Positions 8,001 through 44,383 of a DNA stretch of 64,000 nucleotides are shown here, in pieces (position 1 is the first letter of the stretch; each line of letters begins with the position of its first letter). Made by a program: the position numbers and the translations under genes. The DNA comes from Owenia fusiformis (lineage: Eukaryota > Annelida > Polychaeta > Sabellida > Oweniidae), in the NCBI GenBank assembly GCA_903813345.2, contig CAIIXF020000011.1, positions 29,070,166 through 29,134,165 on the forward strand. The letters run 5' to 3'. Under the pieces are notes generated by a model that did not search any database, had not been told where the DNA came from, and saw only the letters and a list, made by a program, of their open reading frames with translations.

Positions 8001-11000
8001 CCAGTATCTACTTGAAAAACAAGTAGTAAAGGGGGTCCAGGGTCTTGAAGCAAGACTAGCATAGCTAAAAATAAATATACTGTTATTATCCCATCGAACG
8101 AAGTTCGGAGGGATATAGGGAACGCCTCCGTCCGTCCGTACGTACGTCCGTCTGTCCGTCCGTCCGGGCAATAACTCAAATACCGTTGGCCTGATTTTGT
8201 TCATATTTTGTACACATATACCCTATGGCGGTAGAAGTTCTGCTCGAGAGCCGATTTTCAAAATGGCCGCTCATTTCAAAATGGCGGCCATTTTAGTGAC
8301 GATTTTACAGTAATTAAGGTGCAATATGTAAAACTGTAATAGCAATATGTTTTAAATGTAAAAAAATTATAAAGGACATTAATAATGCTACAAATGTAGA
8401 TATTAAAGAAGCACATGGCAGCCATCTTGAAAAATGGCGGCCTTTACTCGTCATTTTACGATTTTTGCTGTAACTCAAATAGTAGTGGAGCGATTTTGTT
8501 CATATTTGGTATGTGAATACTATAAGCATTGCACACTGTCTAAAGACACTTTTGGTAGAAGGTGGCCATTTTGAAAAATGGCCGCCATTTTAACGTATTT
8601 TACTATAACTCGAAAAGTAGTGGAGCGATTTTGTTCATATTTGGTATGTGAATACTATAAGCATGGCACACTGTCTTATGACACTTTTGGTAGAAGGCAG
8701 CCATTTTGAAAAAAAATTTGAAAAATGGCCGCCATTTTAACGTATTTTACTATAACTTGAAAAGTAGTGGAGCGATTTTGTTCATATTTGGTATGTGAAT
8801 ACTATAAGCATGGCACACTGTCCTATGACACTTTTGGTAGAAGGCGGCCATTTTGAAAACAATTTTGAAAAATGGCCGCCATTTTAACGTATTTTACTAT
8901 AACTCGAAAAGTAGTAGAGCGATTTTGTTCATATTTGATATGTGAATACTTTAAGCATGGCACATTGTCTAATAAAACTTAAGGGAGTAGTCGGCCATTT
9001 TGAAAAATGGCCACCATTTTTATGTGTGTTATTTTACAAGTACGTGTGAGATTTTTCAAAGATTTAAGAGGTGGCTACTAAAAAGCATATTATTTCTTCT
9101 GATGACATCTTGGCTAGTGAGCAACCATTTTGAAAATGGTGGCCTTTCTGGTGTGTTGTTTTATGATATTTGCGATTTGTTTGTAAAAATGCCAGCCATT
9201 TCTGTTCGATGGGATTCGCTACGCTTTGGCGTTGCCGTTGTTCTGGTCTTAACATAGCAGGTACACATGTTATAGCAGGTATACACGTTATAGATTTACA
9301 TGCATCCTGGTAAACTTAGTCTTAGTGGCCGGGTTAATATTTCTTCTTTTTTTTTTTTTTTTTTTTCTCAATATACATTTTCACTACACAAGGATACAAG
9401 TGATTTGCTGTAAGCCGTTTTTACAAATGAAATAGAAATACAAAGAATACCAAATTCGACACACAGACCCATTCCACTCACACGACATTCATTCATATCA
9501 TGCATACCACACACATACAATCACTCATCAAAAATATTTTCCAGTCTGAGACCTTCGTTTAAATAGGCTTGAAATCCAACACAAGTCAGTGGCATGTTGG
9601 AATAATAAGCTCTATGAACATAGTATTTTAATATCAAAACGGAAAAGTTAAACTTTCTAAAATGTTTCCTATCGAAATACCCAACAATGACGTGTTGCTC
9701 ATTTAAGTGTATATCCTTTTCTCTCCATTGATCTCCGAAATATTTTAAAAGACTTTTGATGTTCTTGCACTCCCAAAAACGGTGGACAATCGTCTCTTTT
9801 TGGCCGCAAAAATCACATTTATCATTCGTACGTATACCAACAAGTTTAAGGTACAAATTTGAGGCATAAATATTATTAATAATCTTATACTGTAATTCCC
9901 AAAAAGCGTGGTTTTTGGTTATGTCATATACCATTGAACACATATCTCGAGCGTTAACATTATATTTGCAACATAAGCGCTTAACGCTTATTGATTCAGA
10001 AAAACATTGTTGGTTGATGTACAATTGAATCATTTTTGTATTCAAATTTTTGATGTGGACCGTTTTGTTACCAATAAAAAACTCTTCGATGCTTTCAGTA
10101 TATTCGGTTTCACACTTCGCTTTCGGATCGCTTTTTAAAATTGATTTCCATTTCTTTGGAATGGAAGATATTAGGCTAATGTAGTCTAAAAAGTTTATAT
10201 CCACCTGGAACTTGTATTTAAAATCATTCAGTTCCATAAAACTACCATTCCCATTTAGTAAATCATTTATTTGAACAACCCCCATTTCGAAAAGGCTTTT
10301 TTGAAATATCTGTTTACCCTCCCTAAGTATGTATTTATTATGCCATAGTATCTCGCTCTTTACCTCAGAACTGTTTTTTGGTTCCTCCATCTCACTCACC
10401 GTTGAATAATATGAAAGAGCATTCATATAGAAATCGGGGATTTTTTGTTTAAATAGGCGTACATCATATCTACATTGCAGAAGTAGATTAAGACCGCCAA
10501 AATGTTCAAAATATATTCGCGGAATCACTTTCCAGTGGCTAAGTTGGTCATCAAGGAATCGTTTAAGCCACATAATTTTTAGTGCTTTTTCCATCGATGT
10601 CATGTTCACCATACGAATGCCCCCCTGATCATAAGATCCGACCACAGTATTTCGCTTTATTTTATCCCGTTTCCCTTTCCACAAAAAATTATAAATCAAA
10701 GTATTCACCTTTGAAATGATGCTGTCGGGCGTAACAGTCATGGACATAGAATACACGATCTGTGAAACTGCAAGGGATTTGATTATCATAATACGACCGT
10801 AAATGGTGAGATTTCGCTTACCCCAGAGGTTCAGAATCCTCTTCAACGATTCTATTTTCCGGTCAAAATTTATCGCCTTATTATGCTCTGGATCGTATGA
10901 TACACTGATGCCTAAAAACTTACTTGGCCTCTTTACCCAAATACAGCCCCCAATATTCGGATTTACACCATCATGGTTGGCACCAACACTAAAACATTCG

Positions 11001-14000
11001 GTTTTTTCCTTATTAATTTTTAGGCCCGATAATTGATAAAAATTTTCGAAAATGCTTAAGGCAGCTTCAAGGGAATTTGCATCTTTGAGTATTAGAGACG
11101 TGTCATCGGCATACATAATCAATTTCTGAGTGTGGCCATTTAGATCGATTCCTTTCACACTTTCATCTTGCCTGATCTTAAGGGCAAGTACCTCAATACA
11201 TATAACAAAAAGGGAGCAACTTAACGGATCCCCTTGACGGACACCCCTATGTACTTTAAACCACCCAGTAGAATGCCCGTTGTTCAATACGCAGCTATTG
11301 ATATCAGTGTAAAAGAGCTTAACCCAACGGATTAACTCATCGCCAAAATTAAAGTACCGCAACGCAAAATCAATAAAACTCCATTCGATACTGTCATATG
11401 CTTTTTCAAAGTCAATTAAAGAAATAATGCCTGGTATTTTCCTTTCTCTAGTATATACTAGTAAATCCTCCATAAATCGAATGTTTTCGCCAATCAGTCT
11501 TCCTTTTACAAAGGCAGTCTGATCGGGTTCAATAATCGCGCAGAGAACCGCTTCAATTCTCTTACTTACCACTTTAGAAACAATTTTATAATCTATATTT
11601 AACAATGAAATTGGACGCCAGTTTTTAAGCAGAGATAAATCCTTTCCCGATTTTTCAATCAAAGATATTACGCCCTGCCTTTGACTAACAGATAAGAGTC
11701 CAACTCTAAGTGAGAGGTTAAAACTGTCAACAACACCTGTAGAAATGTCGTTCCAAAATGCTTTATACCATTCGGCCGAAAGGCCATCACTCCCCGGTGT
11801 TTTGTTCGACTTAAACGTTGAGAGAACTCTAAAGCATTCTGCTTCAGTAAGTCTGAGTTCGCACGATGCCTTCTGCGCTTCAGATAGTTTACGCGACTGT
11901 AGATTATTAGTAAAAATGTCAAAATCTTTGAAATCGGGCGAGACCTTTTCAGAGTATAAATCTTGATAAAAGAGTTTAATTTCATTCAAAATACGAGTAT
12001 CATTTTCGATACTTACTCCACCAATCGACAAATTTGTTATGTGTTTTTTCTCGTGGTTTGATTTTTCCAAATTAAAGAAAAAAGACGTACATCTTTCATT
12101 TTTTTCATACTGGTCAATTTTTGCTCGGATCAAATGACCTTCCGCCTTATAGATACACATTTTTTCAAGTTTGACTTTTGCTCTTTCATAGGCTTCACAT
12201 ACCGAAGAGATTAAGGTAGAGCCGTCACTTGCAATTAAAGATTCAAGATGTTCGATCTCCTTTAGTAACTGAAGTTCAGCTTTTCGATTTTCACGACATT
12301 TTAACTTTGAAAAATGTATTGTCTTTTCCTTAATTTTGAACTTCATGAATTCCCATAATTCGATCTTGCTGAGATCACGGTGCTCGTCACGTAATTTTGT
12401 TATGAGGCTTCGGATGCTTAAAGAGTACTCCTCGTCTTGTAGCAAACTATTATTAAATTTCCAAAAACCCGCCCCCCTCATTTCTGTATCCAAACCAATA
12501 TTAAGTCGTAATAATTTATGATCAGAAAGAATGGCAGGCTCGATAAAGCACTCACAATTCTTTTTGATCCTCCTGTCAACAAAAAACATATCAATCCTAC
12601 TTTTAAATTTTGAATTTTTAAACTCATCCTTCGCAAAGGACTCATAAGTATATTGTACCGCAGAAGGGTTTAACGTTCTCCAGATATCAAAAAGATTAAA
12701 ATCATGTATCATTGATCTCATGATACCGGCAGATTCGGATTCTTTATGTTTTGTCATTCCGTAGGAATATCTATCCGTATTAGGGTCGAGAATCATGTTA
12801 CAATCACCTCCTATAATCAAAAAATCTGAAGCAAAGTTCGTTGAAATATGAGTGTGAAGCTTTTCAAAGAAAGTCTTATTTTCGTGACCATCGTTTGGCG
12901 CGTAGATATTCACAAAAGTATAAGAGTGAGTACCTATTTTACATTTAATGATAACATACCTACCTGACGAATGTGTATCGATATCCAAAATGTCATATCG
13001 CTGATGTTTAGAAAAAAGTATCGCGACTCCACGCTCGCTCCGTTTTTGACCATGCGCAAAATATATATCAGATCCCCATTCCCTTTTCCACATATTTTCA
13101 TCGGCTATTGACGAATGGGTTTCTTGTAGAAAAACAACATCAAGTCTTTTTCTTTTCAGAAATAAGAAAATAGACGCCCTCTTTTTATTTTGTCTCAGTC
13201 CCTTCGTATTTAGGGACCCTAAATTTAAGTTACGGATAGGAGCAATATGGTTTCACCAAAGACTTAGCCATAAGACCGCGTAACACAGGCATACATACAT
13301 TATACTTGCCCAGGTGGTCAAAACCCCGGAGGAATATCAGATAAAAGCATTTTATATTTTCTTGGTCTAGTGCATCTACAGATAGGATATAACACACTAC
13401 CTCATACCTTACACAATAAAAACTCGTATATGTATTTGAGTTACTCACATAAATCCTGTTCAATACAAAAGACATGCACACACAAAAGGCATTCAGGTGC
13501 AACACACTCACGCACATCAAAGCACACATTATCGCACATAAATACATGGTATGATTTGCAAAGTCACAAAAACATACATTCACACCCAAACATTCGAGAC
13601 TCACAGAGTATTTAACAGAAACAATATTCATTTTCAAAATACAAAAAGACGCCGCTTCAAAACCTTTGCATAGAAGTCCAGTCGTATGCGTACAGTAGCG
13701 GTAATAATTCAATATACAGTTTTTAAAAAAAAAGTGGTTTACAGAACATAAGTTATATACCCTTCTCAACCATTACTTAAATTCCTACAATAAATCACCC
13801 TGGCTGTTGGGAATAGTCAGTATAGTTACGCCCTGACTATCTAAAAAGATTATTTAAAGGGGCCTACAATTGAAACACTTTTATAAATGTTTGAATGTTT
13901 GATCGAGAAACACAAAATCGAAAAAATGGCCCCATAAGTATTTGTAAGTAGTAAGCATTGTTTCGAAAAAAAGAAAACCTCTAGCTAGCTACTAGCCATC

Positions 14001-26044: not shown

Positions 26045-26865
26045 AGTTTGATACTCCATTTGAAAATGTATGTGATGTTCCTGCCCAAAATGAATAGATG
26101 TCACTTTGATAGCAGATTCAGAATTCATCACTGACTGTACACAAATACTTTCAATCATGTTCAAGTTACAAGTCTCTGTAATTTTAAGTCATTCAAAAAC
26201 CAAAAATGGATGAATGCGCTGGAGTCCAACAGCAGGTGCCCCAAGACAATGCTCCTGGTTCTAACAGCATTTTAGAGGGAGTGCTCCAGGAAACGTCAAG
26301 AGTAAAAAATCGCCCGATCAAGCCCCCATATTCTGCAGTGCAAGTCAGCATCTCTCTCTGCAGTTATTCAATGCACTTCACAACCCATTGCTAGACTGTA
26401 CACCATCTGTACCACCATCGCTTCATAGACCACTGCTAGAGTCACTAGACTAATTACATTGTCCACTGTTTGACAAGTGCTTCCTTCTTACGCAGTCATC
26501 TGTGCAACTTTGTTATGTTAGGAAATGAAAGGTAAGTTAATAAATGCATGCTCTCAAACTGTAACTGACAATGTTTCTTGGCACATTTTTAGCTTTAGTT
26601 ATCAGAATGCATAATTATCATACATTTTATTGATTTATGAAAAGTTCAAACCAGCAAATGATGAAGTTCAGTCCAAAGATAGTTGTAATTTCATGAATGT
26701 GAATAGATGGCAGCATTGCATCAAAGAATTAGCACTGTGTGATGAAGTGGGAGTAAGCCAAGATAAAGGTTACATCTGATTCTCTTATCTTTTTGCATAC
26801 AGGGTGGTAAAAAAAACGGCAACCCTAATTTTTCCTCATATCTTTGTCATTTTTAGAAATTTTTA
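26045..26865. other. NSUN4 3' UTR and intergenic DNA
   Basis: A 62-codon open frame at 26206-26394 has no recognisable feature. A TACAGGGTGGTAAAAAAAACGG block just before the minisatellite resembles a degenerate repeat end. Confidence 0.35.
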
Positions 26866-26875
26866 TGTGTTAAGC

Positions 26876-27540
26876 TCAGCAATTGCTATGTGCTAAGCCA
26901 AGCAATTGCCATGTGCTAAGCCAAGCAATTGCCATGTGCTAAGCCAAGCAATTGCTATGTGCTAAGCCAAGCAATTGCCATGTGCTAAGCCAAGCAATTG
27001 CCATGTGCTAAGCCAAGCAATTGCTATGTGCTAAGCCAAGCAATTGCCATGTGCTAAGCCAAGCAATTGCCATGTGCTAAGCCAAGCAATTACCATGTGC
27101 TAAGCCAAGCAATTGCCATGTGCTAAGCCAAGCAATTGCCATGTGCTAAGCCAAGCAATTGCTATGAGCTAACCCAAGCAATTGCTATGATCTAAGCCAA
27201 GCAATTGCTATGTGCTAAGCCAAGCAATTGCTATGAGCTAAGCCAAGCAATTGCCATGAGCTAAGCCGAGCAATTGCTATGTGCTAAGTCGAGCAATTGC
27301 AATGAGCTAAGCTGAGCAATTGCTATGAGCTAAGCCGAGCAATTGCTATGAGCTTAGCCAAGCAATTGCTATGAGCTAAGCCAAGCAATTACTATGTGCT
27401 AAGCCAATCAATTGCTGTGAGCTTAGTCAAGCAATTGCTATGTGCTAAGCCAAGCAATTGCTATGATCTAAGCCAAGCAATTGCTATGAGCTAAGCCAAG
27501 CAATTGCTATATGCTAAGCCAAGCAATTGCTATGTGCTAA
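26876..27540. repeat. 23-bp minisatellite, about 29 copies
   Basis: Unit CAATTGCCATGTGCTAAG plus CCAAG (23 bp). The first ~14 units vary almost only at GCC/GCT; later units accumulate changes (ATGAGCT, CCGAG, AATCA). Since 23 is not a multiple of three, the array does not encode a repeat protein. Each unit contains the palindrome CAATTG. Confidence 0.95.
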
Positions 27541-29011
27541 ATCTTAGAATTTCACATCTCATCCAACAAATTATTCTCAAAATTGCCTTTAAATTGTCAC
27601 TTAAAACAAATCATGAGATACTTGGGGCAAATTCCATATATTTGCTCACGTAAGAGTTCCCATGTCAACAAAGGTTTTAGTCTAATTAAGTGTAATTAAA
27701 TCGATCTAATGGGAATGAACCTATGATTTATCCCACCAAACAATACACACATTGAAAAGAAAAAATAGAAATGTTTAATAATAAAAAAGATAGCACTTAT
27801 CAATATCTGATATGTTTGCTAAGTTGTCTAAATGCTAATTAACTATAGCTTTTTACTGGGAGTGTTAGCATTCTATAGAAATTGAACCTCGTTTTCAGTT
27901 ATATGATCTGATGATACTATTATAGATCTTCCAACAATAGAGATAGATTGTGACCTTGAATATGAAGTTATGCATATCAGTATAAGGAGCGCCAGGATAT
28001 ACTTAAACAATCAAACAATTCACTTGTACTTGATCCAGAAGTAAAAGGTCATATATAAGTATATAAGTACTCAGTATGATGCTGGAGTTGAAAAAGCTGG
28101 AGATGAAAAATACATTCATGACTCAATATGATGCTGGAGTTGAAAAATACATTTATGACTAAACATGATGCTGAAGTTGAAAATACATTTATGACTTTGA
28201 ACATGAAGCTTGACAACAACCTAAAACATTGAACCAGATCAATTGTTTCTAGGCACCACAAAACATGTCAAATGAGATCTATTGTTTAATTTACATTAGT
28301 AAAAGTAAACAATACAATGGCATATTGTTGTCCTCTAATGGAGATGTGATCTGTTCTTGACAACATCAAATGTCTGACATAATTCAAGTATTTTATGTCT
28401 CATCACTGACAAATAAATTAGATGAATAGGGCAGGGAATGTAAAACAAGGTACAAGCCATGAGGCAAGAAACATTATCCAGTTGGTAATCGAGAAAATAA
28501 AAAAGTTCTGAGGCAGATATTAAGGAATGGCAAAAGCCAACTGATTTAATATTTTGTAAGGAAGGAATATACATGTACCAATTTTAGATGGATTTGTTAA
28601 GGAAAGACATAAGAAAAGAGGCGCTTTTGAAGGAAGGAAGAATAGTATTCCAAAATAAAATGCACAGAATTTGATTTTGATGGATAAAAGGGAATGGGTA
28701 CCTTTTTAATGAAGGAATTATTAGTTAGATTATTTGAATTATCTGGATAATATTTTGGTGCAGCCTACCACTTTTTAAACTAAATAACCTACTGTCTTTG
28801 GGAATAAAATACCAAAGAAATTAAAAACTGCCAATAAGAATACATATAACTAATAAATGATCAGAAGGGAGGATAACACAGGATTACACCTCACCCTCCT
28901 AAATATGATGATGATAATAAAGAACATCAATTCATGAATAAATAATAAAATTAATTAAATCAACCATAATACATTGTGTGTTTATTGGAGCTTGTTGGAT
29001 AAATCTCAAAT
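27541..29011. other. intergenic, upstream of GPCR
   Basis: AT-rich; holds the three-copy minisatellite at 28074-28197 but no coding exon that I can support. Any upstream GPCR promoter or untranslated exon would lie here. Confidence 0.4.
28074..28197. repeat. short minisatellite, three units
   Basis: ATGATGCTGGAGTTGAAAAA followed by TACATTTATGACT recurs three times with spacing of about 39-57 bp. Confidence 0.75.
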
Positions 29012-29986
29012 ATGAGCAATAACAGTAGTTTAATATCTGATAACTTTAACACAGATGATATTGAAGAAGTCAACCACTTTCTGACCACTATTCCTACAGT
29101 GCTTATAATACTGATGTGTCCTATTATAATATTTACAAACGTTCTAACAATAACTGCAATAAGGAAATTCTATTATCTCCAAACACCAGCCAACATGTAT
29201 GTGCTGTGTCTATCATGTGCCGATTTACTTTTAGGAATATCCATGCTTTTCTGTACATTCCGAGTCTTTAACCCCAAGGTATTGAATTTTGAAGGGGATG
29301 CTACAGAGAAAAACTCATGCTTAATTTGCTTGGGTATGATGGTTGGATCTGCGGCAGTGTCTTATTTAACATTGACTGCCATGGCAGTTGATCGACTCAT
29401 AGCCGTCACACGGCCATTTCTCTATGAGAGATATTTCTCATTAAAAGTTGTTAGATTCAACATTGTGCTTTTATGGATCCTTGGCTTTATAGGCATGACC
29501 GTTATTTGCACACATGATAGTTGGGAACCGGGGAAGGCATGTCATCTGTCTAAAACCCTTCAACGACTGATGCTATCTATTTTCCTGTTCATCCCATGCA
29601 TCATCCTGACACTGATAATCAGTGGATCTTATGCCAGGATCATCTTCACTGTTCGACAGCAACAACAGAGGATCACGATACAAAACAATGCGATATTATC
29701 CTCAGATGTTTTAATGGAACAAAAGAGACAAGCGAGTTTGAAACTAGCGAAGACCATGCTAACTGTCTATGGGGTCCTTCTGCTATGTTATACACCTTTC
29801 ATTATTGTCACATTACTGCAAGCTGTATTAGGGAATGATCATTTTGGACTTTTGATATTTAATAAGTATGCCGATGTGTTAGTTAGTTGTAATTCTTTCA
29901 TTAATGCATTGATATATGGATGGAGAATGCCAGACTTTAGAAGAGCATATAAACAATTGCTCTGTGGGCAATGTAGGACCATGTGA
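29012..29986 (+). CDS. orphan class A (rhodopsin-like) GPCR, single exon
   Basis: 324 aa, seven hydrophobic helices at about 28-50, 61-83, 103-125, 148-167, 184-207, 245-271 and 283-303. Class A hallmarks: FTNVLT in TM1 (GN-like), LSCADLLLG in TM2, DRL at 127-129 in place of DRY, CYTPF in TM6 and NALIYGWR in TM7 in place of NPxxY. NNSS at 3-6 is a glycosylation site at the extracellular N-terminus. C103 and C177 can form the usual disulfide. The very short C-tail ends CGQCRTM. The ATG is the first in frame. The ligand is not predictable. The family resembles the many intronless orphan receptors expanded in marine invertebrates. Its last ~12 codons and stop form the first unit of a tandem array. 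Confidence 0.93.
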   Translation: MSNNSSLISDNFNTDDIEEVNHFLTTIPTVLIILMCPIIIFTNVLTITAIRKFYYLQTPANMYVLCLSCADLLLGISMLFCTFRVFNPKVLNFEGDATEKNSCLICLGMMVGSAAVSYLTLTAMAVDRLIAVTRPFLYERYFSLKVVRFNIVLLWILGFIGMTVICTHDSWEPGKACHLSKTLQRLMLSIFLFIPCIILTLIISGSYARIIFTVRQQQQRITIQNNAILSSDVLMEQKRQASLKLAKTMLTVYGVLLLCYTPFIIVTLLQAVLGNDHFGLLIFNKYADVLVSCNSFINALIYGWRMPDFRRAYKQLLCGQCRTM

Positions 29987-31165: not shown

Positions 31166-33986
31166 CAATTATTAAGACACGGCAACATCAGAGTGAGAGG
31201 GAATATGTTTTCCAGTGACATCTATATTTAAGATTTTATCATAGAAATGAGAGAATGCTATACTTTCTCGTGTACCCTTTCTTGCAGTTGTGTTGCAATT
31301 CAGCATAGAAACTACTGTGCAAAAATGCTTTACAATATGTACAACAATAGTAGAAATGTTCTTTATTCTTTATATTTTAATATAATTATACAATAAACAT
31401 TGAAAATTTCAATCACCTAGGAGTCATTAGTTAGTAACCAGTTTTACAACCAAGTGGTTTTTCTGATCTTTCTGGTTTATCTCTTGAATGCCCTTGGCTC
31501 TATTATCTAGCCTATCAAGCCTGTCACATGTTCTCCAAAAACTGAATTATGAAAGATGATAAGCACAATAACTGGATAGGAATGTCTAGTTTTGGTAGTG
31601 TCAGAGAATGATATTTTACCAATGAATATCAAGCATTTGGCACAATTAATTTCTAACTTAAAAGAAGCTAATATCAGATAAAATAAAGCCCATAAAAATC
31701 AGCCCTATACAATGGCCAAATCAACCATTATTTTTTCATGAATTTGTTGGAAGTAAGTTCTCATCATAATTTTTGAAAATGGCACTGATGTCCTTAACTT
31801 TAGAATATCATTTTTGTATTATAACTTTTTATTGCATTTACATGAAAGTTTCTAATACATATCTGGGATTGTCGAAATGTTGATGAAAAACAGGGACTAC
31901 ATTTTTTAATGAAAAATGGGTTATGTTTTTAGATTCAGAATCCTGCCTATGGTCAGCCCAGAATCATAGAAAGTTGTGCCGCTTTCCAGTGAGAATATGA
32001 ATAAGGTGAGTTGAACTATTGTCATTTAAAAGATGTCAGGCCTTTGTAAATATTGGTATACAACTTTAAGGCCTGAGTGTTGTCTAAGGTGTTAAGGTGT
32101 TTTTGGCCTATAGTTTTGATATTTAATGTGTATTTTTGAACAAACTTTAAAAATATACATAAGTTTGAGAAATACATTTTGTGTAATGTGTCAACTCTAC
32201 TATACAGGTTTGTAAAATTATTTGAAATCAAATCAGAACCGATTTTAATTAATTTTCATATTTTTATTAAGATATTTATTTTATTAAAAAAGTTACATTG
32301 AACAATGAAATATCTTTAAGAAAAAGAAGCATTATCTTGATATTTATATTTTGATTAAGTTTAAAGTTTATCACAATGGAACTTTGCTAAAGCTATTTAG
32401 AATATATCAAGCTGCAAAAGTCAATCAACTTGGAAAGCTGTTTGGTGTTTGCGAAGCAATTTTAAACAATCTTATTAATTCTCCACTCATTGAAATAACC
32501 ACATTGATAGCATTTTCGAAGCTTTATTTTACAAGATGCGTTATTGCGGATTAAAACCGAGTGAAAATATTTGATTGAATTAAGGAGCTGGTAAACAAGA
32601 CCTGTTGTTCATATTATAGAAGGTTTACTTGATACAGACGTCAATTCTATTCACAAAATGCCTCCGTCTGGATGTCTATTTAAAACTATTGAACATTTTG
32701 TATCTAAGAGACTAAAAAATTATTGACATCTTTTGTGAAACCCTATGTTTAAAGTGCCCCATTTGTCTTCCTTTTCTCTGACATTTCTCAAATATATTTT
32801 TGATTTTAATAAAATTCTGCATAATTTTTAAGTAATCTACTTACATTTGCTAAATCAATTCTGCATTATTTCACTATTTTTAATGTTCTTTTCGGCTTAA
32901 AATCATATCTTTTTGATATTTATTGTTTAGGTAAAGCGTTAATTTGATGCATTATACTGGAGTCTTAATGAAAGCTTAGGCATGGATTGTTCATATAGAC
33001 ACAATGTTTAAAAGAAGGAAAATATGATTTCTGATTTCTTTTATCTGAGGTGCCATTCATTGATAAGGAGGGAACAACTGAGTTATTGCAGCTTTTCTAA
33101 ACAATTTAATTATCATGAAAACACCCGTTCATTAGATATCTATTCAGTGAGGTTAATTTTATATTGCGTCATTCTGTTGTCAATGACACGTCTGATTTTC
33201 TATGACATTTAGAGTTTTTGCGTAATGCTTTCACTTAGTCCTTCTGTTAAATTTGGTTTATCTCCAAAATAGTCTGATGTCTTAATAACTGGGCAGTTCA
33301 AATTATTTTCTATTTGGCTGTTCTTTTGTGCATTTAAATTTGAAATTGAATTTCTTTAACTTAAAAACTGATTTTCTTCAATTTTGATTTAAAGATCTGA
33401 ATGTAGTATGGAGATAACTCCATTTTAAATACAAAGTCAATTCAATAGGAGTATTTCAAGTAATTATTATAAGTTTTTATTAACTAGAAGGTATTGTATT
33501 AACATTTAGAGTACTTCAGGAGTTTATTAACACTTCATAAATATTTTAATGATAATGAAAAAAGTTCATTTAAGACACATGCAGAAAATTCAATTATATT
33601 CAAAGATACTATTACTGATGTCTTTCTATTCTCTGTATCACTTCTCCATTTTTTATACTTATTTATTTGAAATAATTAATTTAGATACTCCTTTTCTACA
33701 GGTTATAAGAAAACTGGCCCTTAAAGAGGTTATGTTAAAGAGCACTTTCAAATGAAGCCTGTATAATGTTGTAAATTTTGTAATAAAAACTGAAATAAAT
33801 TATTTTGAAATTGAAATGGAAACGTGTGTGGAATCATATTATTGCAGAAATAATTCATCCTTTATTAAAGCTGGAATCATAGGTATTAAGGATCAATGCA
33901 GTCATCATGCATGATTTTTGAGCCAATCCTATCCCATTCCAAATACGAAATCATAAGAAGGATCCCGGGAGAAGGATCTACTATTA
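31166..33986. other. AT-rich intergenic DNA, no gene
   Basis: Very AT-rich. No splice-supported coding exon or element boundary was recognised. Confidence 0.4.
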
Positions 33987-34531
33987 GGTAGCGATCTGAG
34001 GCACTTTGATCAGGGTGTTGTCGGGACAATTTCTCTTGTGACTTAGGTTATGTATTTAGGTCTATCTCAACAGATTTTACTGGTCTTATGCGCCGCAAAT
34101 GGTGCGAAAGATGTTAAAATTGCATTTTCGACCCTAAAATTCAGATTTCTTGGGGGTACATTATTATCTAGCTATAAAACAAAAACTAAACAACCAATGC
34201 TTCTTTCTTTTGGTGTTTCTGTTAAGAGTAATCATACTTACAATGCATATGTAAAAAAATTGAAGAATTTTAACTTTATTTAAAAACAACAACATTTTTT
34301 CACCCTAAAATCATAGAATTTTTGGGGGTTGAGAGACACTGATTGGTATTGATTTTTTAATTTCTCAATCAATCTCAGTTTAATATTAATGGAACTTTCC
34401 TAAAAGTAGCACCAACATGTCCCCAACACATTACCATAAAGAAAAAACTCAAACTCTAACAATTTTTTTTGCCTATAGGGGTCAATTTACCTCTCCCCTC
34501 TTTCCCTTTTTACAAGGGCGTGGCCATATTG
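33987..34531 (+). repeat. left TIR, copy 1
   Basis: About 545 bp, inverse of 38046-38586. Inner limit near AAGGGCGTGGCCAT. Open frames inside (e.g. 34050-34283) are TIR sequence, not genes. Confidence 0.85.
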
Positions 34532-34825
34532 GCATGTTCATCTAAAAATAAATACTTCATGTTCATATCCATCCTCTGATCACAGGGCTTCAAAATCAAG
34601 AACATATTCTTTCTTTTTACCCCCTGCGATAAGCAGTTACCATTTCCCCGATTAAGAACTCGCAATCCGATTGGCTGTCGCAACACTGCGACAGAAATCA
34701 TTGTGCATAATTAGATCATGTGATTCAGTTAAATCGGCACGTCCAAATTTGTAATAGCAGGGGGAAGAAGGAGGTACGGATTCTGGAAACCTGCTTAGGA
34801 TGGTTCATATCAGGTTATCATTTTT

Positions 34826-35330
34826 ATGTCACCAACAAAAAGTGGTGACATATTGTTAAGGTCTCTGTTCTTTTTTGACGGTGGTCAGTGGTCGGCGGTT
34901 TGTGGTTGGTGGTTGGCAATTGGGGTCTGTAATAAATTCTTACAATTTCCAATAATTTACAAATACTGTATAGACTGACTTCAATTGTTTTCAAAATCAT
35001 CTACATGTTTTCAGATGTTCAAATCTGACTTTATATTTAAGATTTGACCTTCAATGACCTTTTCAAGGTCAGAAAAGGTCTTTTTTCAACTTGCTTCAAA
35101 TCAACCTTTTTTCAAAATCATCTATAAGTTATCGGAAGTTCAAATCTGACTTAAGGTCTGAGATTTGACCTTCAATGACCTTTTTAAGATTTAAGAATAT
35201 AGATTTGATCATTAAATGACATTCTAAAGGTCAAAATAGATTTGACCTTTAGTTACCTCCTCAAGGTCAAAAAGATATTTTTTATCTTGTTTCAACTAGG
35301 TGGTGACATTTTGTCATGTTAATGCCTTGT
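34826..35330. mobile_element. half-site element, copy C, nested in transposon copy 1
   Basis: Starts ATGTCACCAACAAAAAGTGG and ends GGTGGTGACATTTTGTCATG followed by TTAATGCCTTGT, as in copy A. Holds about two internal units with TGACCT/AGGTCA words. Confidence 0.85.
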
Positions 35331-35728
35331 TTTACTTGTAGCTAGTGAATGTCTTTAAAATGACATACGAGAAATGACATCAGCCTAATTCAGTGGGACC
35401 TGTGTTGGTGAACACCTTTCTCTAGTGAACACCTATGTAAAATGAACACCCTATTTTCAGCACATTCCTTGATTCCAATACAAATTGTCTTTCTGTATTG
35501 AAATCTACCAATAGTGAACACATTTTTGTGGCTCTATGGATGTTCACTGTACACAGGTTTTACTTTATACAAAATACCTTTATATTTAACTTTAATTAAT
35601 AAACTGATTATCTAATTGCAATTATAAATTGCTATCCATTATTTGCAGGGACCATGTAGAAAAACAATAAGGGAGAATAGTAAGCTATTCAAGGCTTATT
35701 ACTGTCTGATGTTCTATTATTAATTAAT

Positions 35729-37767
35729 TTGATTGATTCAATTGATGGCTTTCTCAATCCATTCCAAATTGAGGACAATGATCATTTATACTGTATATCA
35801 TCTGGAATGCCAACACCCTCTAATTTAGCAGATGATCTCTTAAATGTAGCATCCAAGGGCACACAAGCCTTTAAGCAATATATTCAAGACCAATTTGTGC
35901 AGAAGGGAAAAAGTTTTCATGACCCCATAAAAGAATGAAACTGAAAACATCTGAATTCAATGCTGGAGTCAAAAAGGTGAAAAGCTCTGGAAACAAACTG
36001 ATTGAGATTAGAGCTGAGCGCAATATATTTGGCCAGTTAGTCATGTTATCAGAGCAGCATAGTATCAGTCTAAAGCGAATATTGGAATATCCCCTGAGTC
36101 CAATACCCTGGGCTCTTGGAACACCTGATGGGCTCTTGGTTAAAACAGAAAAGTCTAAATTATTACATGATCTGGAAACATATAATATTGGACATGGACC
36201 CAAACCAGAAAAAACAATTATAGTCTATGACGGCAATGCATTGTTCTATATTCTTCCTGAGCGACCCAAAACATTTGGATTATTGGCAGAGAGGATCCTT
36301 CAGATGCTTCCTATAAGAAAGATTCAATTAAAGAACCAGAAAGAATATGCAGGCGTGTCTCCAAAAAGCTAATAATAAAAGGACCCAATACCAGGATTCC
36401 TAACAATTGGAAGGAATTCCTTTTAAATGATGAGAATGAAATGCAGCTGAGTAAGTTGATCCTTGAAGAATGGAAAAAGATAAAAATGCTCCTAAACTCA
36501 AAGAAAGACAGATTCATGTGGTGAGATCTGTACAGTGCACCAGTGATAGAACTACTGTTACACATAGAGTTGAACCTAGTCTGAAATCTTCCCACAAAGA
36601 GGCAGATACAAAAATTATACTCCATGCAATTAACATGAAATGAACCTGAAAATACAGAAAAAACTATAGTTGTGAGATCCCCAGATAGCGATGTTTTTGT
36701 ACTTGTGCACTTTCCAATCATATTCAAACTCCATTAATTTTCGACACTGGTAGAGCAGACCACATATGACTTATTAAAGGTGCAACAATTAGTGCAGTGG
36801 GGTAATTCAACGATCATCGACCAGTGTCAAAATATATTTAAGTTTGGATATTTCATCAAGACTAACATATATTTTTATTATCTACAAAGAAACCCCCTGG
36901 ATGAACATAATTTCAGCTGATATTCTTCTTGAAATGTGGTGAATCTTAAAAATCAAATATAGAAGCTTTGAACTGAATTTACACTTCTAAATTGAGAGTT
37001 TATCCATACATTTTCAGAAAATAGGTATGTCAAAGAAGATGTTAAGCCAAATATTGACCTGATAGCTCAGAAAAAAGAAAAAAATTCCAATTTTCTCTCT
37101 ACAGTCCTTGTTGCCCCTTTAATGTAAAGGAAGTAGGAAATGCGCTCAGTTCAGACATTTGTAAATTTGTAATGCTTTACCAGCCTTCCATTCATTCACT
37201 GGATGTGATTCCTTCATTGCCTTTGTGAGAAGGGGGAAAGTGTCCCCCCCCCCCCTAAAATTACTTATGAGATCTGTAGGATTTCAAAAAAGTTTCGGCA
37301 CCATTGGAGGGGTCATTAATGATCAAACTGCTTAATGTGCTGAGAAGTTTACTTGCCAGATGTATGGAAACAAAAAGTGTTCAAATATAAATGAGCTGAG
37401 ATATACCTTATTCGAGAACAAATTCCAACCAAAATCTGCTCCAAGTGTGATAACAAGCTATGAAGGCACTGACATAAGCCTCCTACCCCCATGTAAAGAT
37501 TCACTACAGCAGCGTCTAGCAAGGGCCAATTATCAAGCACACATATGGAAACTTGCCCACATCCCCTCCCCATCAATTCCCTCCCCTGTGTCACATGGAT
37601 GGAGGATGAAAGATGGCCATTTGGATTTCCAATGGGTGTCAAATCCAGATAAAATACTACCCCAGGACCTGGTAGATGTTATATTAGATGATACTTTAGA
37701 GGATCAAAATGAAGAGGAAGTTTGTGAAATACAAAGCTTTGTGGATGAAATATATTCTGGTGAATAA
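35729..37767 (+). pseudogene. PIN/FEN-like nuclease protein of the transposon, frameshifted (copy 1)
   Basis: Conserved blocks lie in order but in different frames. 35729-35938: FLNPFQIEDNDHLYCISSG, stopping at a shift within PIK-MKLKT. 35935-36372: GTPDGLLVKTEKSKLL and YDGNALFY...TFGLLAERIL. 36321-36523: DSIKEPERICRRVSKKLIIK and IPNNWKEFLLNDEN. 36479-36643: SHKEADTKIILHA. 36645-36737: VVRSPDSDVFVL. 36763-36800: LLKVQQLVQWG. 37171-37239: ALPAFHSFTGCDSFIAFV. 37342-37767: EKFTCQMYGNKKCS, LLPPCKDSLQQRLARANYQA and HIPSPSIPSPVSHGW. The acidic motifs DGNA, EADT and PDSD are what I expect of a PIN/FEN-type metal-binding site. This arrangement matches an abundant unnamed protein family of marine invertebrate genomes that I recall only as uncharacterised. 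At least four frame breaks make it non-functional. The acidic C-terminus lacks the Cys-rich tail I recall in relatives. Confidence 0.75.
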
Positions 37768-38045
37768 AAACTACATTTGTGATGACAGAAATTCATACAA
37801 TGAGTAAAATTAATATTATGACTGAGTTGTGAACTGTGTATTAGATAATATTCAACTTCAGATTTTTAATATTCTTATATCTCGAGCCTACATAGAATAA
37901 ATATTGTATTATAAATAATTCACAGGTATGTACTATATGTATACACCTAAGTGAAAATATTTTATGGTAATATATTTGATAAAATACATGATATGTACAT
38001 GTATTCATTTAATGTGACATCATGCTACTGTTTAAATCCACATGT

Positions 38046-38586
38046 ATTAATGGCCACACCCCTTTTATAAGGGAAAGAGGGGAGAGGTAAATTGACTCTA
38101 ATAGATAAAAACATCAGAGTTTGAGTTTTTTCTTTATGGGTAATATGCTGGGGACATGTTGGTGCTATTTTTAGGAAAGTTTCATTAATATTAAACAAAG
38201 ATTGATTGAGAAATTAAAATATCAATTCCGATCAGTGTCTCTTGACCCCCCTAAATTCGATGATTTTAGGGTGAAAAAATGTTGTTGTTTTTAAATTAAG
38301 TTAAAATTCTTCAATTCTTTTACATATGCATTTTAAATATAATTACTCTTAACAGAAACACCAAAAGAAAGAAGCATTGGTTGTTTAGTTTTTGTTTTAT
38401 AGCTAGATAATAATGTACCCCCAAGAAATCTGAATTTTAGGGTCGAAAATGCAATTTTAACATCTTTCGCACCATTTGCGGCGCATAAGACCAGTAAAAT
38501 CTGTTGAGATAGACCTAAATACATAACCTAAGTCACAAGAGAAATTGTCCCGACAATACCCTGATCGAAGTGCCTCAGATCGCTAC
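38046..38586 (-). repeat. right TIR, copy 1
   Basis: Begins near ATGGCCACACCCCTTTTATAA and ends ATCGCTAC. Inverse of 33987-34531 with small differences (for example CTTTGATCAGGGTGTT versus CTTCGATCAGGGTATT after inversion). Confidence 0.85.
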
Positions 38587-39131
38587 GGTAGCGATCTGAG
38601 GCACTTTGATCAGGGTGTTGTCGGGACAATTTCTCTTGTGACTTAGGTTATGTATTTAGGTCTATCTCAACAGATTTTACTGGTCTTATGCGCCGCAAAT
38701 GGTGCGAAAGATGTTAAAATTGCATTTTCGACCCTAAAATTCAGATTTCTTGGGGGTACATTATTATCTAGCTATAAAACAAAAACTAAACAACCAATGC
38801 TTCTTTCTTTTGGTGTTTCTGTTAAGAGTAATCATACTTACAATGCATATGTAAAAAAATTGAAGAATTTTAACTTTATTTAAAAACAACAACATTTTTT
38901 CACCCTAAAATCATAGAATTTTTGGGGGTTGAGAGACACTGATTGGTATTGATTTTTTAATTTCTCAATCAATCTCAGTTTAATATTAATGGAACTTTCC
39001 TAAAAGTAGCACCAACATGTCCCCAACACATTACCATAAAGAAAAAACTCAAACTCTAACAATTTTTTTTGCCTATAGGGGTCAATTTACCTCTCCCCTC
39101 TTTCCCTTTTTACAAGGGCGTGGCCATATTG
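38587..39131 (+). repeat. left TIR, copy 2
   Basis: Same as 33987-34531. Together with the right TIR of copy 1 it makes a ~1.1-kb palindrome centred on 38586/38587. Confidence 0.85.
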
Positions 39132-39425
39132 GCATGTTCATCTAAAAATAAATACTTCATGTTCATATCCATCCTCTGATCACAGGGCTTCAAAATCAAG
39201 AACATATTCTTTCTTTTTACCCCCTGCGATAAGCAGTTACCATTTCCCCGATTAAGAACTCGCAATCCGATTGGCTGTCGCAACACTGCGACAGAAATCA
39301 TTGTGCATAATTAGATCATGTGATTCAGTTAAATCGGCACGTCCAAATTTGTAATAGCAGGGGGAAGAAGGAGGTACGGATTCTGGAAACCTGCTTAGGA
39401 TGGTTCATATCAGGTTATCATTTTT

Positions 39426-39930
39426 ATGTCACCAACAAAAAGTGGTGACATATTGTTAAGGTCTCTGTTCTTTTTTGACGGTGGTCAGTGGTCGGCGGTT
39501 TGTGGTTGGTGGTTGGCAATTGGGGTCTGTAATAAATTCTTACAATTTCCAATAATTTACAAATACTGTATAGACTGACTTCAATTGTTTTCAAAATCAT
39601 CTACATGTTTTCAGATGTTCAAATCTGACTTTATATTTAAGATTTGACCTTCAATGACCTTTTCAAGGTCAGAAAAGGTCTTTTTTCAACTTGCTTCAAA
39701 TCAACCTTTTTTCAAAATCATCTATAAGTTATCGGAAGTTCAAATCTGACTTAAGGTCTGAGATTTGACCTTCAATGACCTTTTTAAGATTTAAGAATAT
39801 AGATTTGATCATTAAATGACATTCTAAAGGTCAAAATAGATTTGACCTTTAGTTACCTCCTCAAGGTCAAAAAGATATTTTTTATCTTGTTTCAACTAGG
39901 TGGTGACATTTTGTCATGTTAATGCCTTGT
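39426..39930. mobile_element. half-site element, copy D, nested in transposon copy 2
   Basis: Identical to 34826-35330 and duplicated with its host. Confidence 0.85.
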
Positions 39931-40328
39931 TTTACTTGTAGCTAGTGAATGTCTTTAAAATGACATACGAGAAATGACATCAGCCTAATTCAGTGGGACC
40001 TGTGTTGGTGAACACCTTTCTCTAGTGAACACCTATGTAAAATGAACACCCTATTTTCAGCACATTCCTTGATTCCAATACAAATTGTCTTTCTGTATTG
40101 AAATCTACCAATAGTGAACACATTTTTGTGGCTCTATGGATGTTCACTGTACACAGGTTTTACTTTATACAAAATACCTTTATATTTAACTTTAATTAAT
40201 AAACTGATTATCTAATTGCAATTATAAATTGCTATCCATTATTTGCAGGGACCATGTAGAAAAACAATAAGGGAGAATAGTAAGCTATTCAAGGCTTATT
40301 ACTGTCTGATGTTCTATTATTAATTAAT

Positions 40329-42367
40329 TTGATTGATTCAATTGATGGCTTTCTCAATCCATTCCAAATTGAGGACAATGATCATTTATACTGTATATCA
40401 TCTGGAATGCCAACACCCTCTAATTTAGCAGATGATCTCTTAAATGTAGCATCCAAGGGCACACAAGCCTTTAAGCAATATATTCAAGACCAATTTGTGC
40501 AGAAGGGAAAAAGTTTTCATGACCCCATAAAAGAATGAAACTGAAAACATCTGAATTCAATGCTGGAGTCAAAAAGGTGAAAAGCTCTGGAAACAAACTG
40601 ATTGAGATTAGAGCTGAGCGCAATATATTTGGCCAGTTAGTCATGTTATCAGAGCAGCATAGTATCAGTCTAAAGCGAATATTGGAATATCCCCTGAGTC
40701 CAATACCCTGGGCTCTTGGAACACCTGATGGGCTCTTGGTTAAAACAGAAAAGTCTAAATTATTACATGATCTGGAAACATATAATATTGGACATGGACC
40801 CAAACCAGAAAAAACAATTATAGTCTATGACGGCAATGCATTGTTCTATATTCTTCCTGAGCGACCCAAAACATTTGGATTATTGGCAGAGAGGATCCTT
40901 CAGATGCTTCCTATAAGAAAGATTCAATTAAAGAACCAGAAAGAATATGCAGGCGTGTCTCCAAAAAGCTAATAATAAAAGGACCCAATACCAGGATTCC
41001 TAACAATTGGAAGGAATTCCTTTTAAATGATGAGAATGAAATGCAGCTGAGTAAGTTGATCCTTGAAGAATGGAAAAAGATAAAAATGCTCCTAAACTCA
41101 AAGAAAGACAGATTCATGTGGTGAGATCTGTACAGTGCACCAGTGATAGAACTACTGTTACACATAGAGTTGAACCTAGTCTGAAATCTTCCCACAAAGA
41201 GGCAGATACAAAAATTATACTCCATGCAATTAACATGAAATGAACCTGAAAATACAGAAAAAACTATAGTTGTGAGATCCCCAGATAGCGATGTTTTTGT
41301 ACTTGTGCACTTTCCAATCATATTCAAACTCCATTAATTTTCGACACTGGTAGAGCAGACCACATATGACTTATTAAAGGTGCAACAATTAGTGCAGTGG
41401 GGTAATTCAACGATCATCGACCAGTGTCAAAATATATTTAAGTTTGGATATTTCATCAAGACTAACATATATTTTTATTATCTACAAAGAAACCCCCTGG
41501 ATGAACATAATTTCAGCTGATATTCTTCTTGAAATGTGGTGAATCTTAAAAATCAAATATAGAAGCTTTGAACTGAATTTACACTTCTAAATTGAGAGTT
41601 TATCCATACATTTTCAGAAAATAGGTATGTCAAAGAAGATGTTAAGCCAAATATTGACCTGATAGCTCAGAAAAAAGAAAAAAATTCCAATTTTCTCTCT
41701 ACAGTCCTTGTTGCCCCTTTAATGTAAAGGAAGTAGGAAATGCGCTCAGTTCAGACATTTGTAAATTTGTAATGCTTTACCAGCCTTCCATTCATTCACT
41801 GGATGTGATTCCTTCATTGCCTTTGTGAGAAGGGGGAAAGTGTCCCCCCCCCCCCTAAAATTACTTATGAGATCTGTAGGATTTCAAAAAAGTTTCGGCA
41901 CCATTGGAGGGGTCATTAATGATCAAACTGCTTAATGTGCTGAGAAGTTTACTTGCCAGATGTATGGAAACAAAAAGTGTTCAAATATAAATGAGCTGAG
42001 ATATACCTTATTCGAGAACAAATTCCAACCAAAATCTGCTCCAAGTGTGATAACAAGCTATGAAGGCACTGACATAAGCCTCCTACCCCCATGTAAAGAT
42101 TCACTACAGCAGCGTCTAGCAAGGGCCAATTATCAAGCACACATATGGAAACTTGCCCACATCCCCTCCCCATCAATTCCCTCCCCTGTGTCACATGGAT
42201 GGAGGATGAAAGATGGCCATTTGGATTTCCAATGGGTGTCAAATCCAGATAAAATACTACCCCAGGACCTGGTAGATGTTATATTAGATGATACTTTAGA
42301 GGATCAAAATGAAGAGGAAGTTTGTGAAATACAAAGCTTTGTGGATGAAATATATTCTGGTGAATAA
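40329..42367 (+). pseudogene. PIN/FEN-like nuclease pseudogene, copy 2
   Basis: Same blocks and same frame breaks as 35729-37767, shifted by 4600 bp. Shared breaks show that the duplication came after inactivation, or that the second copy is an assembly artefact. Confidence 0.75.
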
Positions 42368-42645
42368 AAACTACATTTGTGATGACAGAAATTCATACAA
42401 TGAGTAAAATTAATATTATGACTGAGTTGTGAACTGTGTATTAGATAATATTCAACTTCAGATTTTTAATATTCTTATATCTCGAGCCTACATAGAATAA
42501 ATATTGTATTATAAATAATTCACAGGTATGTACTATATGTATACACCTAAGTGAAAATATTTTATGGTAATATATTTGATAAAATACATGATATGTACAT
42601 GTATTCATTTAATGTGACATCATGCTACTGTTTAAATCCACATGT

Positions 42646-43186
42646 ATTAATGGCCACACCCCTTTTATAAGGGAAAGAGGGGAGAGGTAAATTGACTCTA
42701 ATAGATAAAAACATCAGAGTTTGAGTTTTTTCTTTATGGGTAATATGCTGGGGACATGTTGGTGCTATTTTTAGGAAAGTTTCATTAATATTAAACAAAG
42801 ATTGATTGAGAAATTAAAATATCAATTCCGATCAGTGTCTCTTGACCCCCCTAAATTCGATGATTTTAGGGTGAAAAAATGTTGTTGTTTTTAAATTAAG
42901 TTAAAATTCTTCAATTCTTTTACATATGCATTTTAAATATAATTACTCTTAACAGAAACACCAAAAGAAAGAAGCATTGGTTGTTTAGTTTTTGTTTTAT
43001 AGCTAGATAATAATGTACCCCCAAGAAATCTGAATTTTAGGGTCGAAAATGCAATTTTAACATCTTTCGCACCATTTGCGGCGCATAAGACCAGTAAAAT
43101 CTGTTGAGATAGACCTAAATACATAACCTAAGTCACAAGAGAAATTGTCCCGACAATACCCTGATCGAAGTGCCTCAGATCGCTAC
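42646..43186 (-). repeat. right TIR, copy 2
   Basis: Same as 38046-38586. Confidence 0.85.
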
Positions 43187-44383
43187 CTATATGCCATATC
43201 AAATGTTGAATTTATTGAGGATTTTCCACATTTCTGCATTAAAATGCTAACAATGTCAGTTAACAATTTGAAAATCACCTACATTACAATTATATCAAGA
43301 TTTATACATTTATCATTTTGAGGAGAAAAATGTTAAAATCTCTGTATTTCCTTGGATATGCCATGAAGTTTTTGAACATACTTACAGAAAATAACCATGG
43401 CATGATTGAGAGAAAAAGAACTGAAAAAGGCATTTGGCGCTGTAAATCTGATAATGCAATATGTCCCTTTAATCCTAAAAATAGGTTAATGGTCATAATT
43501 GATCAGATATAAGTTATTTTTACAAATCTGTTTGAACAAATAAAGAGATACAAATCTCTGGTTGAGTGAGTGAATAAATCTAGTTAAAAGGTTACTCTAA
43601 ATTGCACGAAGTTACATTTGATGTTATGCCTAAGGTCATTAGAGTTGATCCCTGACTCAGATGTAATGTCCACCAAGGAGACAGTAAATTTCATCACATA
43701 GCTCATCTTACTTTTATAGACTGAAAAGATAATAATCTTCGTGGCCATTTAAACTCAGGATGTTTGTGGTTTTATATCCTAAAGAAGTAGAAGTGATAGA
43801 CAGTGTACACTGTATTTGCTAGAAGAAATATTTTCCAAAACTGCTCCATAACAATCTGACATTTATATTCTGAAAGGAATTGAGATATCTGATGTCTGAA
43901 GTATCTGAGATTAGAAAATTTAAGATATAGAAATGTCCAAATTCTTTAGAATTGTAATTGTTCTTTAAGGGTTATCATGCAAAATATTGTTGGGATATGA
44001 ACAATTTTTCATATCAGGTCTCCACCAATGGTTTTCAAAACGCAGACATTTGGGAATGTGCAATTATCAATGAAACAATTCTCAGAAAATGAATTAATGA
44101 ATTCAGTATTATTTGTAATATTCTTATTTACAAGGTGATTTAAAAACAGAACAACATAAAATGGAAAATCATATATTTCTGAAGAAGTTAAGGCCAATGT
44201 CGGATAATGAATGCAATGTGGTTCAAGTAGGGATGTGGAGATTCTGAGGCTGTGCATCCATTCATTCATTCATCCATGTTTACTTCTGTCCAAGTGTTAA
44301 CTCAAATATCAGTTGTCGGATTCAGTGAACATTCAAACAGATTTCATGAGATATAATTTCTGAATTGTTAACATATTTTACAG
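43187..44383. other. AT-rich intergenic DNA, no gene
   Basis: A pair of opposed 64-codon open frames at 43302-43512 has no recognisable feature. Confidence 0.35.

Follow-up and report, generated by a model that had tools for sequence, protein, structure and literature searches.

A probable non-autonomous AcademX-like DNA transposon arranged as an exact head-to-tail dimer in the genome assembly of Owenia fusiformis

In the genome of the annelid Owenia fusiformis, a broken gene for a PIN/FEN-like nuclease is located between very long terminal inverted repeats (TIRs), which raises the question of what kind of element this is and what moved it. The window analysed here is a 64,000-nucleotide stretch of the forward strand of contig CAIIXF020000011.1 (assembly GCA_903813345.2, positions 29,070,166 to 29,134,165). 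The first-pass annotation of the window considered both that the nuclease itself may drive movement and that the element may be non-autonomous. We think it highly probable that this animal genome harbours here a non-autonomous, internally deleted AcademX-like DNA transposon, two units of which form an exact head-to-tail dimer. The architecture of the element and the length of its target site duplications (TSDs) suggest the assignment to AcademX. The element is probably of an already known kind and not a nuclease-driven transposon: its copies carry dead C-terminal remnants, its relatives contain a core that appears DDE-like, and a nuclease is combined with 3-4-bp TSDs.

The complete element begins with 5'-TAGGTAGCGATC on the left and closes with GATCGCTACCTA on the right, two bases further out than GGTAGCGATC, which had been taken for the start of the inverted repeats. 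The TIR arms of the first unit (33988-34447, plus strand, and 38127-38586, minus strand) are 94% complementary across 460 nt, and are continued inwards by a weaker extension (34466-34546 and 38031-38111) that is 78% complementary. The arms measure ~0.5 kb, roughly the ~540 bp proposed before. A genome-wide search for the terminal 16-mer that tolerated as many as 2 mismatches gave 84+70 matches, versus 11+8 for the reversed control, an abundance that exceeds chance. The 4.6-kb unit had been recognised in the first-pass annotation, but as a single element with boundaries that miss a tandem pair. The unit is present twice, head to tail, and the whole dimer (33985-43189) has TAT at both outer flanks (left TSD 33982-33984, with flanks TCTACTAT / TATGCCAT; right TSD 43190-43192). 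Unit 1 (33985-38586, plus strand) has a complete left end and is trimmed on the right at the junction, and unit 2 (38587-43189, plus strand) is trimmed on the left and has a complete right end.

Positions 33987-38586 are identical to 38587-43186, with 0 differences in 4600 bp and an exact identity run with a period of 4600; the other family copies (n=22) diverge from the window unit by 2-5%. At the end-to-end junction (38576-38598), CAGATCGCTAC abuts GGTAGCGATCTG; relative to CTACCTA and TAGGTAG, the true ends, the right end has lost ~3 bp and the left end ~2 bp. When the genome was searched for the junction pattern with 0-25 bases between the ends, the sole exact match was the junction in the window. 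The most likely origin of the dimer is the joining of transposase-cut element ends, which would have been connected end to end with the loss of ~5 bp. Two sister chromatids, one cut at the right end and the other at the left end, may have been joined, or the ends of an excised copy may have been joined and the dimer re-inserted. We find it unlikely, although worth serious consideration, that the tandem dimer is an assembly error and that the locus is really single-copy. Such an error would fit the perfect identity of the units and the lack of another exact junction match; however, the junction is offset from the true element ends by no more than 3 and 2 bp, and TAT is retained at both outer ends. 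Random duplication or misassembly is hardly expected to produce breaks within 3 bp of both ends with TAT outside.

Each unit contains the broken remnant of the C-terminal third (residues ~950-1522) of what is probably an AcademX-like protein (35726-37767 in unit 1 and 40326-42367 in unit 2, both plus strand). The gene had been described as cargo of the element, and it is indeed present, but only as this part of a longer protein. Short internal repeats, with 80-bp and 36-bp units containing TTTGACCTTCAATGACC, are positioned between the left TIR and the remnant (34988-35273, plus strand). The motifs quoted in the first-pass annotation are located where it placed them, with FLNPF in the frame starting at 35726, ALPAFHSFTGCDS in the frame 37165-37332, and LARANYQA in the frame 37336-37767. 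Also on the plus strand, DGNAL (36229-36243) is the equivalent of invariant D1116, the first FEN-type carboxylate, EADT (36599-36610) of E1255 and D1257, and PDSD (36681-36692) of D1280 and D1282. TGCDS (37198-37212, plus strand) is the equivalent of invariant D1338 and is aligned with the GCDY motif of host FEN1/EXO1/XPG. The gene is broken, as had been stated, by a frame change between 35919 and 35938 and by stops at 36641 and 37333. The DDE-type residue set is absent from the window copy.

Elsewhere in the window, a minisatellite comprises 29 copies of a 23-bp unit with 92% matches (26864-27540). A 1243-aa open frame on the minus strand (9521-13252) is endonuclease- and reverse-transcriptase-like and, by eye, is a seemingly intact LINE ORF2, and a 327-aa open frame on the plus strand (29003-29986) resembles a rhodopsin-type GPCR and, also by eye, is probably a single-exon host gene. 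Two nested inverted-repeat pairs ~5 kb apart (2273-2402/7577-7706, 92%, and 2719-2792/7395-7468, 96% complementary) perhaps belong to another TIR element.

The assembly that contains the window (498 Mb in 525 contigs, C1-C12 being 32-62 Mb long) was searched for further members of the window family. Among the matches listed, the exact termini form at least 36 facing pairs besides the window (hand count), 31 of which are spaced 4.2-5.9 kb. We fetched 22 copies besides the window (L001-L016 and L038-L043), all of them from exact pairs except L016, whose pair contains one mismatch; part of one further copy (L053) was also read. The test for target duplications covered the 21 fetched copies with both ends exact and excluded L016. 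TSDs flank 20 of the 21 copies (18 of 3 bp and 2 of 4 bp), and with shuffled partners 3-bp matches averaged 2.0 and never exceeded 7, versus the 18 observed; L040 is the only tested copy with no TSD. The duplicated sequences include AAG, GTT, TTG, TGT, GAT, and ATG. TA was rejected as the TSD, since it is the element's own terminal dinucleotide and the duplicated 3-4 bp lie outside it, as seen in the flanks of the 21 copies and at an empty satellite site. The TIRs and TSDs bear out the earlier description of a bounded mobile element. The extra length of L043 includes a reverse-transcriptase-like frame (by eye). At C2:4162197-4162391, two exact window-family termini are just 195 bp apart, a possible miniature derivative.

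When compared with a 1526-aa intact protein, all 23 copies (the window and the 22 others) align from residue 948-950 onward only; therefore, the family descends from a founder without the N-terminal ~950 residues. The variable columns of the remnant, aligned to the window frames, are distributed 84/95/84 over codon positions 1/2/3 (p 0.64), and the singleton columns 65/65/55 (p 0.61). Differences summed per copy are 70/93/83 in the 4.5-kb group and lean towards codon position 3 in the 5-kb group (236/228/300), a sum in which subfamily differences are counted many times. The intact family of 6.4-kb elements described below served as a control and shows little variation, with 3/1/4, 6/1/9, and 8/6/16 differences over the three codon positions. 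The spacing of the frame break (35919-35938) is common to 20 of the 22 other copies and the stop at 36641 to 21, and the stop at 37333 occurs in none of them (0/22). Many copies have frame-changing length differences relative to the window, for example 17 of 22 between 35938 and 36300. The lack of codon-position bias, together with a frame break and a stop common to nearly all copies, indicates that the family probably spread without making the nuclease. All 23 copies look dead since the founder. The simplest reading of these alignments is that the founder was already non-coding and that the family would have been moved in trans. The window copy is a 5'-deleted remnant, which agrees with the earlier suggestion that the element may be non-autonomous.

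A query with the N-terminal part of the intact protein matched 64 places (48 of 341 candidates scored), and none of these is, by eye, within 10 kb of the window-family termini listed. A full-length partner carrying the TIRs of the window family was not found among the candidates scored in this search. The widest exact TIR pair, which spans 13 kb on C10, has no N-terminal part in the 8.8 kb that were read. At five places (C3:15418973, C1:14174046, C10:32681857, C5:23428902, and C11:23004878), a 207-aa frame matches the full-length protein at 39-40%, and over residues 10-207 alone; one of the five frames has a stop, and they perhaps represent a separate N-terminal-only family.

Intact relatives are present in the same genome. 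A C-terminal block of the remnant matches at least 151 places (150 of 566 candidates scored), some of them in open frames of 1000-1526 aa; shorter C-terminal open frames (e.g. 291-448 aa) also matched, of which C3:3008843 (L026) alone was read. Four loci (L017-L020) are copies of one 6.4-kb element that are 98.5-99.7% identical, and three of them have an open 1526-aa frame, that of the fourth being 1317 aa long. The TIRs of this family are ~520 bp long, match at 96-97%, and have the ends TAGTGG...CCACTA. All four copies have 3-bp TSDs as judged by eye (AAG, TAC, TGA, and AAA), and an unoccupied site in a satellite array confirms the AAG duplication. A second full-length family, represented by L025, has a 1435-aa frame, 674-bp TIRs at 98%, and the TSD TTG (1/1). 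The search for inverted repeats and target duplications around intact homologues, which had been recommended at the outset, thus yielded both in two further families. BLAST self-comparison of L027-L037 revealed long TIRs flanking the gene in 0 of 11 loci, several of which are cut close to the gene; TIRs are therefore established for three families only, those of the window, the 6.4-kb element, and L025. In L027, a ~640-bp insertion (7456-8098), flanked by TA on either side and with CAGGGTGTCCCGAAAGT as its inverted ends, is absent from L028 and resembles a mariner-type MITE.

L051 and L052 are 99.5% identical copies of a longer relative, with ~1930 aa in the stretch read and reported frames of 2641 and 1952; they contain DUF6589 over the cut-off and a very FEN-like GCDY motif. 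The search of genome contigs outside the window's own genome identified one broken copy (L050) on the 3.4-kb contig NZ_CAHJWD020000426.1, which is filed as a Bathymodiolus gill symbiont. Since the contig bears a broken copy of an animal transposon protein, it is probably host DNA within a bacterial assembly. The frame of L050, like that of the window copy, is broken inside the nuclease domain. No relatives were found in the viral contig collection.

The full-length proteins were compared in an alignment of ten proteins chosen for long frames (A2), to which L051 was added to give eleven (A5). L018-L020 (of L017's family), L026 (broken), L028 and L030 (near-duplicates of L027 and L029), and L034 (two frames) were left out, and the frame of L037 runs off its stretch. 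The nuclease domain is the C-terminal third of a single ~1500-aa protein in the intact relatives, the N-terminal two thirds of which contain a putative DDE core. L017 and L025, identified with the C-terminal query, also carry the N-terminal core, and L027-L037 and L051, from the N-terminal and DUF6589 queries, respectively, also carry the nuclease part. The fused protein is present in ten further lineages of this genome with 17-49% identity to L017 and a constant order of parts. A Cys/His-rich region is located at the N-terminus, and several lineages have a Cys-rich tail (both by eye). A first set of residues invariant in 11/11 proteins comprises D402, D633, H661, D875, and E879, of which D402, D633, H661, and E879 probably form a DDE (RNase H-like) transposase core. 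A DDE transposase in intact copies with the same TIRs had been named as evidence against the first-pass reading; the probable DDE core belongs to relatives whose TIRs differ, and the 23 same-TIR copies that were read include no intact one.

A second invariant set, also in 11/11 proteins, follows the FEN1/XPG pattern D / D / ExE(D) / DxD / D with D1116, D1153, E1255-x-D1257, D1280-x-D1282, and D1338. A host nuclease profile was built from exons of the FEN1-, EXO1-, XPG-, and two GEN-like genes of the same genome, which were named by eye among the PF00867 matches. The best score of this profile against the ten proteins is 32.3, compared with a maximum of 22.1 for 200 column shuffles and 11.7 for the reversed alignment; against the eleven proteins it is 37.9, compared with a maximum of 22.3 for 150 column shuffles. 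The eleven-protein match places D179xD181 on D1280xD1282 and GCDY on TGCDS within one alignment. The HHalign probability is modest, at 17-18% with ten proteins, 48% with the nuclease region of these ten alone, and 48% with eleven. At the level of sequence, the domain is thus similar to FEN1/XPG-type nucleases; the seven FEN-patterned carboxylates and a profile score above all shuffles agree with the PIN/FEN-like nuclease identified previously.

The protein family had been called uncharacterised, and database searches agree with this. In the window pieces, L017, and the nine other A2 members, all Pfam models stay below their cut-offs, and the best NCBIfam match has an E-value of only 0.01. The PDB search returned nothing with L017 alone and, with A2, one unconvincing match of the Cys-rich tail (E 5.4). 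PF20231 (DUF6589) matches residues 874-1167 of L051 with 46.5 bits (cut-off 27) and the L026 region with 30.1 bits, over the cut-off, and is below it in L029 (21.6). DUF6589 is over the cut-off at 8 genome places, at one of them only with neighbours. The literature search on DUF6589 found no papers, and that for this protein family found nothing by title or abstract start.

These search results bear on the possibility that the elements belong to a separate superfamily, in which a DDE-like core and a FEN-type nuclease were fused independently and which also makes 3-4-bp TSDs. We judge this improbable. It would be in keeping with the ten A2 members having no Pfam model over the cut-off, with only DUF6589, of unknown function, in L051 and at the 8 genome places, and with AcademX being known here from its published description. 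However, a nuclease combined with a 3-4-bp TSD is that published description, and the length agrees with that of curated bivalve Academ elements, for which the excerpted source gives a mean of 5565 bp and 100 elements in the library (PMC10294476). It is very improbable that the nuclease alone drives movement of the 4.6-kb family, as had been proposed: the nuclease remnant is the sole part of the full-length protein in the 23 copies, but the version in the founder was broken already and no coding constraint is visible in the variable columns, and the 11 aligned full-length frames, chosen for length, with short C-terminal frames read in part, all fuse the nuclease to the probable DDE core. Equally hard to credit is a captured host gene carried as cargo, since the resemblance to FEN1/XPG, a host repair family, is countered by the occurrence of the fused protein in the further lineages in constant order and by host XPG_I exons matching PF00867, which the A2 element proteins do not at E-values up to 1.

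Under the favoured reading of an AcademX-like transposon, the full-length protein would be supplied in trans and recognise the long TIRs. Its DDE core would cut and join the 3' ends to target positions 3-4 bp apart, and the fused flap-type nuclease would process the other strand or the ends. The founder of the window family would have lost the N-terminal ~950 residues but not the TIRs, and the family would have spread as a passenger, with what remains of the nuclease as debris. More speculatively, and more likely wrong than right, AcademX-like proteins may be single-chain two-nuclease transposases. In these, the DDE core would join the 3' ends, and the FEN-type domain, obligate and under selection, would trim the ends or cut the strand that is not transferred; the window dimer would then be a fresh scar of double-strand cutting and sister-copy end joining. 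The sampling covers one genome, from which copies were picked by matching ends or long frames. The proteins of this family, which are abundant in the genome (one C-terminal block alone matches at least 151 places), are likely AcademX-like transposases. Pfam describes the family partially at most, through DUF6589, and this domain is now tied to the presumed transposase core. Intact, nearly identical copies are now named in one genome, and the role of the fused flap-type nuclease can be tested on them.

The nuclease of AcademX is of the XPG type, AcademH is presumed to share the DDE core, and Kojima 2020 is reportedly the source paper for the AcademX lineage. In published excerpts, AcademX has 3- or 4-bp TSDs and AcademH 9 or 10, the two being linked to a nuclease and a helicase, respectively (PMC10045372), Academ is among the DDD/E superfamilies in the Repbase list (PMC9587614), and further excerpts only name Academ or AcademH (PMC10799480, PMC5753468, PMC9004415). 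By description and TSD length, rather than by Repbase sequence, the elements studied here resemble AcademX in their 3-4-bp TSDs (20/21 copies of the window family, 4/4 of the 6.4-kb family, and 1/1 for L025), in the putative FEN-patterned nuclease encoded in the 11 full-length proteins, and in their TIRs of ~0.5 kb, ~520 bp, and 674 bp, respectively. In contrast to AcademX, the window family is non-autonomous, lacks the transposase part, and sits as an exact dimer. AcademH differs in its helicase and 9-10-bp TSDs, against the nuclease and 3-4 bp here, and the TSD length speaks against it. Helicase models gave no match at E <=0.05 in A2 members or the L051 stretch read, AAA_22 and Pox_D5 reaching E ~0.09 in one member each. 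L051 and L052, considered as AcademH candidates for their long DUF6589 frames, were rejected, as they have the FEN-type part and no helicase match in the stretch read. Tc1/mariner, which duplicates TA, was rejected because the duplicated bases lie outside the terminal TA of the element. PIF/Harbinger elements have 3-bp TSDs of the TWA type, and were rejected because the TSDs have other sequences, such as AAG, GTT, and TTG.

The carboxylates of FEN1 are D34, D86, E158/E160, D179/D181, and D233. The seven invariant carboxylates of the element proteins have the same grouping and order as in FEN1/XPG/EXO1/GEN1, and a GCD[YS] segment is shared, but one carboxylate is D where FEN1 has E. The domain differs from FEN1/XPG nucleases in being fused behind a transposase-like core and in having no XPG_I Pfam match, and its nuclease activity is putative. 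In L051 and the L026 region, PF20231 (DUF6589) overlaps the presumed core in part, but it is a family of unknown function that leaves L017 unmatched and L029 below the cut-off. The closest parallel to the dimer is provided by the multimers of KolobokP, an animal DNA transposon that forms tandem arrays and likewise codes for a nuclease. According to the excerpted description, long terminal direct repeats are common to the KolobokP arrays (PMC9587614), whereas in the window complete units abut at a trimmed junction and have inverted repeats only.
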